From: Geomonas sp. RF6
Lineage (GTDB): Bacteria > Desulfobacterota > Desulfuromonadia > Geobacterales > Geobacteraceae
Direction of reading: 5' to 3'
Assembly (NCBI RefSeq): GCF_021044625.1
Contig: NZ_CP087999.1
Coordinates: forward strand, 1,133,001 to 1,197,000
DNA: 64,000 nucleotides
The notes under the pieces were generated by a model. The model saw only the letters and a program-made list of their open reading frames with translations. It was not told the DNA's origin and did not search any database. Shown piece by piece: positions 42,866 through 45,258 of the stretch. Position 1 is the stretch's first letter; each line of letters opens with the position of its first letter. The position numbers were made by a program, and so were the translations under genes.

Positions 42866-42883
42866 ACTTCGGCATGCCGAAGT
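42866..42883. promoter_or_regulatory. Palindromic site 1 upstream of parB-like gene
   Basis: ACTTCGGCATGCCGAAGT, a perfect 18-bp palindrome, about 505 bp before the ParB-like ATG. First of four copies. Confidence 0.75.
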
Positions 42884-42917: not shown

Positions 42918-42935
42918 ATTTCGGCATGCCGAAGT
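42918..42935. promoter_or_regulatory. Palindromic site 2 upstream of parB-like gene
   Basis: ATTTCGGCATGCCGAAGT, the same palindrome with one C-to-T change in the left arm. Its centre is 52 bp from site 1. Confidence 0.75.
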
Positions 42936-43000: not shown

Positions 43001-43020
43001 GACTTCGGCATGCCGAAGTC
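43001..43020. promoter_or_regulatory. Palindromic site 3 upstream of parB-like gene
   Basis: GACTTCGGCATGCCGAAGTC, a perfect 20-bp palindrome. Its centre is 84 bp from site 2. Confidence 0.75.
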
Positions 43021-43063: not shown

Positions 43064-43083
43064 GACTTCGGCATGCCGAAGTC
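43064..43083. promoter_or_regulatory. Palindromic site 4 upstream of parB-like gene
   Basis: GACTTCGGCATGCCGAAGTC, identical to site 3, also with CCC just before it (CCCGACTTC versus CCCCGACTTC). Its centre is 63 bp from site 3. Confidence 0.75.
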
Positions 43084-43310: not shown

Positions 43311-43387
43311 CTGCCGTGGAACGCGAGTTCCGACACCAGCGCAGCTTCTTAACTAATAACGATTGCCTGCACAATAGAGGAGGTAGC

Positions 43388-44164
43388 ATGTCCGAGGAAA
43401 ACGTCGAGTATGAAAAGGGAAAGATCTACGAGCTGAATATGTCCGAGCTGCATCTCGACGAGGGCCAGCCCCGCAAGTACTTCGATGAAAAGGCGCTCCT
43501 CGAGCTGAAAGGGTCGATCGAGAAGCACGGAGTACTGCAACCGGTTCTGGTGCGCCGCGACGAGAATGGCCGGCTTCTGGTGGTATCCGGGGAAAGGCGC
43601 TACCAGGCCTCCCTTCTGGCTGGGCGCACCACGATCCCCGCAGTACTGACGGACGGCAATCCCATTGAGATCTCCATAGTGGAGAACCTCCTGAGGGAAA
43701 ATCTCACTGCCATAGAGGAAGCAGAAGCTATCGAACGCCTCCGGGCGCAACACGACTACCAGCTTTCCGACCTCTCCATGGTGCTCGGGAAGGCGGAGTC
43801 TACGCTCTCGGAGATCCTCTCCCTGACAAAGCTCCCAGCATCGGTAAAGGAGGACTGCCGCAGCGATCCGAAGACATCGCGGGGGATCCTGGTGGAAATA
43901 GCCAAGCAGGGGAGCCAGGAAAAGATGAATTCGCTGTACGCAAAGTACAAGGAGAGCGGCCTGACCAGGGGCGAAATCCGGCACAGAAGCAGGGCTGCAC
44001 GCGGTGCCGACGGGATCAACCTGAACTTCATTTCCGCATGCGCGGCGCGCATCGAAGCGATCGACGTAGGAAAGCTGGACAAGGCCCAGGCGGAGCTCCT
44101 GGCAACAGAACTGGGGAAGCTGCGCTCGACAGCAAAGCAGAAGGTGAAATCGATCGCGACGTGA
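43388..44164 (+). CDS. ParB/Spo0J-family DNA-binding protein without ParA partner
   Basis: 258 residues from ATG with GGAGG 5 bases upstream. The ParB/Srx domain is complete: QPVLVRRDENG (C1-like), GERRYQA (68-74, the CTP-binding C2 motif, family form GERRxRA) and ENLLREN (99-105, C3). A helix-turn-helix follows (YQLSDLSMVLGKAESTLSEIL, about 124-144) and a helical C-terminus with a basic end. ParB proteins load on palindromic DNA sites as CTP-switched clamps. No parA gene lies within the window, and four palindromes sit just upstream, the likely binding sites. It could be a partition protein, a Noc-like factor or a transcription factor. Confidence 0.85.
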   Translation: MSEENVEYEKGKIYELNMSELHLDEGQPRKYFDEKALLELKGSIEKHGVLQPVLVRRDENGRLLVVSGERRYQASLLAGRTTIPAVLTDGNPIEISIVENLLRENLTAIEEAEAIERLRAQHDYQLSDLSMVLGKAESTLSEILSLTKLPASVKEDCRSDPKTSRGILVEIAKQGSQEKMNSLYAKYKESGLTRGEIRHRSRAARGADGINLNFISACAARIEAIDVGKLDKAQAELLATELGKLRSTAKQKVKSIAT

Positions 44165-44330: not shown

Positions 44331-44651
44331 ATGAAACCAGGGAGAATACCGTCAGTGGCACTTGCCCTTGCTTTGGCGACTCCGCTGTGGGGGAGTCAGG
44401 AGACGCCGATATCGGGGAAGAACCTCGGAAGCGTCACAGGAGGGGACTTCAAGATCGCCCTCAGCGTCATCGAGAAGAAATGCACGGTCTGCCACAGTTC
44501 GAGCGTGATCAACAGCGCGCTGAAGTCCGAAAAGGACATGCTGGCGATCCAGAAGTCCATGGAGAAAAAAGGAGCGAAGCTAACCACGAACGAGCGCGAG
44601 GTGCTGGGAATTTACTGGAAGCAGCACCCGTTGAAAGAGAAGCGCCAATAG
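44331..44651 (+). CDS. Small exported monoheme cytochrome c
   Basis: 106 residues with a signal peptide (SVALALALATPLWGS) and one heme motif CTVCH at about residues 51-55, in the context IEKKCTVCHSSSVINSAL. The likely distal ligand is a Met in the following helices (MLAIQKSMEKKG), ending EREVLGIYWKQHPLK. It fits small class I-like periplasmic cytochromes. GGAAGGAGGAGCT precedes the ATG. Confidence 0.8.
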   Translation: MKPGRIPSVALALALATPLWGSQETPISGKNLGSVTGGDFKIALSVIEKKCTVCHSSSVINSALKSEKDMLAIQKSMEKKGAKLTTNEREVLGIYWKQHPLKEKRQ

Positions 44652-44742
44652 AGGCTCATCTGGTTCAGAAAAAGTTTGCTTTAGCTGCCTCCTCCCATGA
44701 CGCGAGGGGGTTTCCCCTCACAGGAGCAGGCGAGGCTATTAC

Positions 44743-44861
44743 GTTCCCCCCTTTGCGAAGGTTCTTCCGGAAATTCCGGGGGAGCGTGGGTGCATTGCCA
44801 CGAAGCACTGCAGAAGGCCTAAGGTTCCCCCCTTTGCGAAGGGGGGGCAGGGGGGATTTGA
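44743..44861 (-). repeat. Composite inverted repeat, left arm
   Basis: Two copies of an 80-81 bp unit in minus orientation, each bounded by CCTTTGCGAAGG (ending at 44761 and 44842). The inner edge, GGGGGGCAGGGGGGATTTGA, is the complement of TCAAATCCCCCCTGTCCCCC in the right arm. Confidence 0.7.
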
Positions 44862-45039
44862 TCTTCAAGTCTCCTCCAGAACCGCAGCCCGTTTAACAGT
44901 ACATCTCGGTCTTCGAACCGCAGTGCTGCGGCAGCTAAAGATCAACGACATAGGCTCCACCAGTTTTCTGCAAACTGGTATCAAGGGAATTGCTCGAGAC
45001 CACAGCAGTTGCGCACTTTGCAGGACGGTGTTGGCCGAG
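44862..45039. other. Spacer between the repeat arms
   Basis: About 178 bases with no reading frame of note. It contains CCAGTTTTCTGCAAACTGG (a hairpin near 44960-44978) and GCAGTGCTGCGGCAGC. It has no transposase and is not recognised. Confidence 0.4.
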
Positions 45040-45258
45040 TCAAATCCCCCCTGTCCCCCCTTCGCAAAGGGGGGAACGCTAGGCCTCGTGCGGCCTTTCA
45101 TTGAACATACTACAGCTTCCCCGGAATTCTCGGATGAGCCTTTGTAAAGGGGGGACGCGAGGCCTCATGCGGCCCTTCATTGGAACATCCTACGGCTTCC
45201 CCACAATTCCCGGAAGAGCCTTCGCAAAGGGAGGGACGCCTGTTCTCGTGCAGCGGCC
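45040..45258 (+). repeat. Composite inverted repeat, right arm with tandem 80-bp units
   Basis: Units start with CCTTCGCAAAGG or CCTTTGTAAAGG at 45059, 45139 and 45219, exactly 80 bp apart; the third is partial. Each contains GGCCTCxTGCGGCC and CTTCCCCxxAATTC. They are inverted relative to the units at 44743-44861. Confidence 0.75.

Follow-up and report, generated by a model that had tools for sequence, protein, structure and literature searches.

An orphan ParB of Geomonas sp. RF6 with candidate parS-like sites of its own and a residue that tracks the site bases across its relatives

The window analyzed here is a stretch of 64,000 nucleotides from Geomonas sp. RF6, whose genome is a single contig of 5.26 Mb in which the window occupies positions 1133001-1197000. 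The open reading frame at 43388-44164 of the window was found to encode a complete ParB protein of 258 amino acids with an ATG start. Four parS-like sites lie 306-522 nt before its start codon, between parB and glyQ, the latter being on the other strand. The features of the locus are as follows.

42866-42883, no strand assigned: parS-like site 1, ACTTCGGCATGCCGAAGT, exact match
42918-42935, no strand assigned: parS-like site 2, one mismatch in 18
43002-43019, no strand assigned: parS-like site 3, exact match
43065-43082, no strand assigned: parS-like site 4, exact match
43376-43383, forward strand: ribosome-binding site AGAGGAGG, read from the sequence
43388-44164, forward strand: orphan parB; ParB_N CTPase fold (residues 12-101), HTH_ParB (residues 104-160) and a helical C-terminus
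43589-43609, forward strand: CTP-binding motif GERRYQA, residues 68-74, from sequence and alignment
43682-43702, forward strand: CTP-binding motif ENLLREN, residues 99-105, from sequence and alignment
43796-43831, forward strand: predicted recognition helix, residues 137-148, from the helix in the AlphaFold model and co-variation
43796-43798, forward strand: codon of E137, the predicted specificity residue, from co-variation

The array was searched for with ACTTCGGCATGCCGAAGT, allowing up to 3 mismatches, and 100 shuffles served as the control. Three exact matches and one match with a single mismatch were found, compared with a maximum of 1 in any shuffle, which upholds an earlier note on this DNA that had credited the gene with a site array of its own. 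The only reading frames listed over the array are of 98 and 63 amino acids. Downstream of parB, an open reading frame at 44331-44651 encodes 106 amino acids with a CxxCH motif, perhaps a small heme protein, and has no Pfam match. Further on, at 44742-45254, related repeats cluster around CCCCCCTTTGCGAAGG in both orientations.

The window protein exceeds the curated Pfam cut-off for ParB_N by a wide margin (76.8 bits vs 26.3) and also passes that for HTH_ParB (35.3 bits). All three CTP-binding motifs are whole, namely Q27 P28 R29, GERR at residues 68-71, and ENLLR at residues 99-103 with E99, N100, and R103 in place. The CTP-binding motifs and the helix-turn-helix are thus intact, as had been claimed from the sequence. 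The AlphaFold model has a mean pLDDT of 89.1, and its best structural matches are tied: Noc (7nfu, Z 15.9), Caulobacter ParB (6t1f, Z 15.8), and KorB (8qa9, Z 15.7). Residues 1-12 form no helix in the model, which is of low confidence there. The LG[KR]G tail that binds ParA is absent from the window protein; its tail is MSEENVEYEKGKIYEL.

A search of the whole genome with AAA_31 (ParA type) gave 10 matches, none of them within 1133001-1197000, in agreement with the earlier statement that no ParA is coded in the 64 kb. The genome-wide search that had been proposed for a canonical parAB pair located one at 2067357-2068965. The two genes adjoin, with parB directly behind parA and carrying an LGKGM tail, and are followed by genes that read as ATP-synthase genes. 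The canonical parS, GTTYCACGTGRAAC, has 2 exact matches, at 1929235 and 1929394, ~5 kb from dnaA at 1934128. Given this parAB pair of the canonical type elsewhere in the chromosome, with parS near dnaA, the window ParB is a true orphan that stands outside that ParABS system. In all, five ParB_N genes are present, the canonical one included, which excludes the case that the window protein is the sole ParB and pairs with a distant parA.

The remaining three are further orphan ParBs. Two are close paralogues of the window protein, to which they are 61% and 57% identical across most of the sequence, and the third shows 38% identity over residues 4-199. A copy of the site with two mismatches lies just past the stop codon of a paralogue, at 2837245, and no recognizable site was found near the paralogue at 1848172. 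The orphan ParB at 3843652-3844431 has Q137 and is followed by GGATCGGCATACCGATAC; this stretch has low third-position GC and looks island-like.

Relatives were gathered by whole-genome searches and by a scan of named genomes, the latter covering records titled Geobacter, Geomonas, Trichlorobacter, Pelobacter, Syntrophus, Desulfarculales, Magnetococcales, and others, mostly MAGs. Among the 80 rows from the named genomes, the final 15 are canonical. The 141 candidate loci reduced to 101 unique orphans, and 23 canonical loci were used as a control. Within the order, 44 of 141 genomes contain an orphan-type match (E < 1e-39), some as many as 8, as counted by eye. The fetched stretches contain a ParA motif in none of the 101 orphans and in 23 of 23 canonical loci, the median stretch being 4.8 kb, so that a distant parA is possible. 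Likewise, the LG[KR]G tail is found in 0/101 orphans vs 23/23 canonical proteins.

No neighboring gene is conserved in general. The largest cluster of neighbors covers 6 of 101 loci, many flanks being only 1.2-1.5 kb long, and because no neighbor is conserved, the gene plus its site is the unit. Viral contigs yielded only 6 remote matches to the orphan ParB, and therefore there is no sign of a phage family. In one genome (G071), four closely similar orphan ParBs have GYRR in place of GERR, and next to each is a divergent gene whose translation resembles a REP-associated transposase. In another genome, G003, an open frame of 716 codons joins the orphan ParB to an upstream protein, and its N-terminal portion resembles a radical-SAM enzyme on reading. 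An apparent in-frame TGA in G399 was rejected, being the genes' own stop codon that the search had read through.

Palindromes are a common feature of the DNA just behind the orphan genes. Of 91 orphans, 44 have a perfect palindrome of at least 14 bp in the 150 nt that follow the stop codon, vs a mean of 1.35 (maximum 7) in shuffled sequences and 0 of 21 canonical genes. At a length of at least 20 bp, 17 of 91 orphans retained one, vs none in shuffles. A common half-site rule, fixed after such sites had been looked at, was then applied to a window of 200 nt past the stop codon. By this rule a downstream site is present in 51 of 95 relatives, compared with a shuffle mean of 0.8 (maximum 2) and 1 of 21 canonical parB genes. 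Four further loci, including the window gene, have a site upstream only, and 42 of 97 relatives have no site by the rule. The distance from the site center to the stop codon ranges from 11 to 143 nt with a median of 48 (50 sites, L317 left out).

The half-site bases at positions -7 and -6 from the dyad track residue 137, the first residue of the predicted recognition helix, among 52 loci that have both a site and sufficient protein. D137 goes with TC (11/11), R137 with G at -7 (9/9), Q137 with A at -7 (6/6), and other residues with TT (26/26). L317 (spurious site), L323, and L141 (partial protein) were left out of this count. When held-out palindromes are added, the code is right in 62 of 63 loci, the restored L323 being the one misfit, and in 62 of 66 if the misfitting held-out palindromes L100, L120, and L322 are counted. 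No label shuffle scored above 31 in the first case or 33 in the second. Where residue 137 of a held-out locus is D, R, or Q, the code was right for 7 of 7 loci with a palindrome, and no palindrome was found at 9 more such loci. In a later draw from the phylum, 35 loci were examined, 3 of them already known, and 6 of 8 new loci with a downstream candidate fit the code (misfits L345 and L367; upstream candidates L342, L346, L347, and L351 uncounted).

Where the half-site has G at -4, residue 139 is T in 48 of 50 loci and residue 142 is E or D in 50 of 50. Two loci in which this base is C carry alanine at both positions, A139 and A142. In a third such locus, L048, the residues are N139 and E142, and therefore the change at -4 is followed by residue 139 only.

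The code was also viewed on a tree from which the recognition helix had been left out. This tree was made by a quick method; 41 of its 97 branches are open, and some are long. Independent pairs across well-supported branches, drawn from the 63 loci, gave 3, 2, and 3 concordant pairs, none discordant, and one not differing; with the three misfits included, the counts were 4, 1.5, and 3 concordant, none discordant, and 2, 0.5, and 1 not differing, each test being too small for significance alone.

In solved structures, the counterparts of residue 137 by alignment are R in Myxococcus ParB (GKERST) and Q in Geobacillus Noc (GKGQST). PMC7383237 (section 12) reports that R173 bonds guanine 1 of parS in ParB-parS and that Q158 bonds adenine 1 of NBS in Noc-NBS. 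The canonical pair of the RF6 genome fits the code, with G at -7 in its parS, and R is found in 23 of 23 canonical rows. The window protein has E137, which is neither the canonical R nor the Noc Q at the contact position. Because residue 137 predicts the bases and contacts the outer base in published structures, the palindromes are very probably the cognate binding sites of the orphan ParBs. Binding at such a cognate site can be predicted with high confidence.

Where else do these sites occur? In the RF6 genome, the 18-mer is found at 11 exact and 4 one-mismatch places. One of the latter, at 1908913, is deep in a predicted gene, and the others make up eight clusters, at 0.510, 0.845, 1.176 (the array), 1.221, 1.258, 1.693, 2.723, and 3.343 Mb. 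A simple call of reading frames places the clusters outside the window in intergenic DNA in 5 of 7 cases, and those at 509785 and 3342697 are 69 and 181 nt into predicted reading frames whose starts are perhaps wrong. With up to 3 mismatches the 18-mer has 47 places vs 78 for a reversed control, and therefore only sites with 0-1 mismatch are meaningful. A 14-mer at 0 mismatches has 20 places (5 of them within coding genes) vs 0 for its control. The neighbors show no demonstrable theme; mtaB-, glgA-, priA-, and ruvA-like genes are among them, named from their translations only.

In other genomes, sites of the TTCGGCRYGCCGAA class are present in 19 of 23 genomes that contain an orphan-type match vs 13 of 35 that do not, as counted by eye and with G027, which has a broken orphan, placed in the latter group. 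Coding coincidences inflate both groups, the site falling inside accA-like and cheB-like genes (read names) in 6 genomes each. A strong dispersal of TTCGGCRYGCCGAA in many relatives was rejected, since several cases are coding coincidences or longer repeats (G035, G038, and G041), and therefore the claim of dispersal rests mainly on the RF6 genome itself. The TTCCSG-type palindrome TTCCSGNNNNCSGGAA has 52 places in 8 genomes with D137-type orphans and 22 in 6 genomes without (controls 3 and 3). The only clear difference is in perfect palindromes of this type, with 26 in the 8 orphan genomes vs 1 in the 6 without, counted by eye. Each of these 8 genomes has one to four perfect sites per palindrome, usually one of them beside the gene. 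For TGYCGGNNNNCCGRCA, 60 places in 11 orphan genomes compare with 26 for the control, which is the larger in 2 of the 11.

No dispersed site position was seen to be shared with the RF6 genome. Besides coding cases and sites at the genes themselves, two dispersed places are common to G039 and G051 (L192 with L183 and L198 with L187). G143 has 10 sites of the GAGCTC-centered class, counted by eye. In G023, which is 70% complete, 4 copies of TTCGGCATGCCGAA with 36-80 nt spacing stand at a contig end, and no orphan ParB was found in that genome despite the four-site array.

A quite different reading of the palindromes is that they are terminators or REP-like repeats unrelated to ParB. A T-rich tail at 10 of 50 downstream sites is in keeping with terminators. 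In addition, the palindrome core lies within a longer repeated element in G035, G038, and G041, where many copies (L163-L182, L203-L212) have flanks that resemble one another across much of a 94-nt stretch, and therefore the site may have spread with the repeat. However, a recognition-helix residue predicts the palindrome bases, the sites are rare by canonical parB genes (1/21), and the flanks of the copies in the RF6 genome look unrelated by eye. Taken together, this reading is very improbable.

The placement of the sites in the RF6 chromosome bears on a Noc-like or nucleoid-organizing role, in which the protein would coat many origin-side loci and affect division or the layout of the chromosome instead of genes. 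A GC-skew fit puts the origin near 1.88-1.90 Mb and the terminus near 4.5-4.6 Mb. All 8 clusters are within 1.424 Mb of dnaA (range 0.24-1.42 Mb), which is 54% of each arm, and none is near the terminus. The clustering has P ~0.007 if a uniform distribution is assumed, but this is a post hoc test with three clusters within 82 kb, and the fit to a Noc-like role is weak. The lack of a common target gene beside the sites, which include convergent regions, also suits such a role. Bacillus Noc is likewise a ParA-less relative of ParB with dispersed sites of its own, and the origin-side bias of the sites here is a weak point of likeness.

The window protein itself is less like Noc. It scores 122.6 bits against the NCBIfam Noc model TIGR04285, far under the cut-off of 315 and below the canonical ParB of the same organism (252.6), and it has E rather than Q at the contact residue. 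No membrane tail is visible in its first 12 residues on inspection, the model being of low confidence in that part. The window protein is not a Noc by sequence. The few perfect sites per palindrome in the eight D137-type genomes also speak against a Noc-like role. The earlier note had proposed an orphan ParB system with its own sites and a role other than chromosome partition, such as Noc-like occlusion or gene silencing; the orphan and the site family are borne out, and the likeness to Noc is not, at the level of sequence. A Noc-like role is unlikely on balance, yet it keeps a real chance because of the origin bias.

Canonical ParB recruits SMC, and the CTP motifs of the window protein are those of canonical ParB. 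It could therefore be proposed that the private-site clamps recruit condensin without ParA, as a secondary SMC/MksB loader or an accessory centromere. A precedent for ParB and parS sites without ParA is found in S. pneumoniae, as stated in the available part of PMC7022226. However, the sites are few and stand 0.24-1.42 Mb from dnaA, and either function appears improbable.

How would the orphan ParB act? The best explanation, to which about an even chance is given, is a ParA-independent ParB clamp that acts at its own palindromes and brings about KorB-like regional repression, its own gene included. The clamp would dock at its own parS-like palindromes (ACTTCGGCRYGCCGAAGT in the RF6 genome) and not at canonical parS. 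By analogy with the biochemistry of ParB, Noc, and KorB, a CTP-bound dimer would load at the site, close, and slide over neighboring DNA, and CTP hydrolysis would release the clamp. CTP-gated loading and sliding of the window protein is likely by this analogy because the CTP motifs and the fold are conserved. The dispersed sites would be further targets.

Regional repression as the main effect is the least certain step; self-regulation or regional silencing as the main role is put at slightly less than even. It is suggested because no feature of the family is more common than a site beside the gene itself, and because the neighbors are unconserved. One to four perfect sites per palindrome, with one by the gene, also fit local regulation better. 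KorB, a CTPase clamp, slides to promoters up to 1.5 kb away, according to the abstract of PMC11790492. KorB of plasmid RK2 is one of the three tied fold matches of the window ParB and is a ParB-type sliding clamp used for repression; it differs in being a plasmid protein with another operator, and it has a KorA partner. Several observations speak against the best explanation: 2 of 8 clusters (1220554/1220611 and 1258199) fall in gaps toward which two predicted genes converge, a setting in which a promoter would not be expected, another 2 of 8 are in the 5' part of a predicted reading frame, perhaps one with a wrong start, and the sites are biased toward the origin. The paralogue at 1848172 and the 42 relatives that have no site by the rule also count against it, as do the TTCGGCRYGCCGAA sites in genomes without an orphan-type match.

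Alternatively, the family could be left over from the partition system of a plasmid or mobile element and serve no function in the host today. Its patchy distribution (44 of 141 genomes, with up to 8 in one), the lack of conserved neighbors, the four copies by a transposase-like gene in G071, and the low third-position GC around the Q137 paralogue in RF6 are all in line with this. Residue and site, however, change together across the family, for which continuing selection for binding would be needed, and the CTP motifs are kept in most members. A remnant is quite improbable.

Sister lineages display traits that the window protein lacks. An N-terminal tail motif, Q[LMY]x[LMFI]F (16) or QQSLF (2), is present in 18 of 98 orphans (L050-L060, L062-L066, L100, and L308) vs a mean of 0.11 (maximum 2) in shuffled tails and 0 of 23 canonical tails, the pattern having been fitted after the tails were seen, QQSLF in particular. 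The motif resembles the consensus by which bacterial proteins bind DnaN (beta clamp). In 15 of 92 orphan rows another residue stands in place of the GERR glutamate; 8 of these rows belong to the 18 motif bearers and 7 do not, and 4 of the motif bearers have GQRR. In B. subtilis ParB, E78Q abolishes measurable CTP hydrolysis, as reported in the available part of PMC8494293; by its place between G77 and R80, it is the same change as in GQRR. The window protein has neither the DnaN-like motif nor the glutamate loss.

These traits allow a further reading, a doubtful one, in which each gene with its own loading site, a one-residue address, and in part of the family a DnaN motif in place of the ParA-binding tail would serve in replication-coupled marking or occlusion. 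If so, several addresses would coexist per genome in a system unlike ParABS and Noc. Clamps that have lost the catalytic glutamate would be expected to stay closed, and the DnaN part would concern sister lineages and not the window protein.

The orphan ParB shares with canonical ParABS the CTPase fold, the helix-turn-helix, a palindromic site, and a specificity residue at the same position, which is R there. In contrast to the canonical system, the window ParB has no ParA and no LG[KR]G tail, carries E137, and is matched with ACTTCGGCRYGCCGAAGT rather than GTTYCACGTGRAAC. The available part of PMC12704722 reports that orphan ParBs are widespread, with homologues outside parAB and scattered ones that lack a ParA-binding motif; the window ParB is alike in both respects, and therefore an orphan ParB as a kind is already known. 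The words Geobacter and Desulf- are absent from the main text of that survey, and private sites or a residue code were not found in its available part. Likewise, the available text of the open-license literature searched gave no mention of the private-site architecture, of the T or TC base classes, or of the tail motif, and no match to the site letters or to a ParB with QLSLF.

The family appears to offer natural ParB-site pairs that are apparently orthogonal and have a readable one-residue specificity code. This code extends the known contacts of ParB (R to G) and Noc (Q to A). Members without the glutamate are natural candidates for clamps that bind CTP but do not hydrolyze it, and the new pairs may be useful to label loci in live cells. 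Because the sites are known, the function of chromosomal orphan ParBs is now testable.
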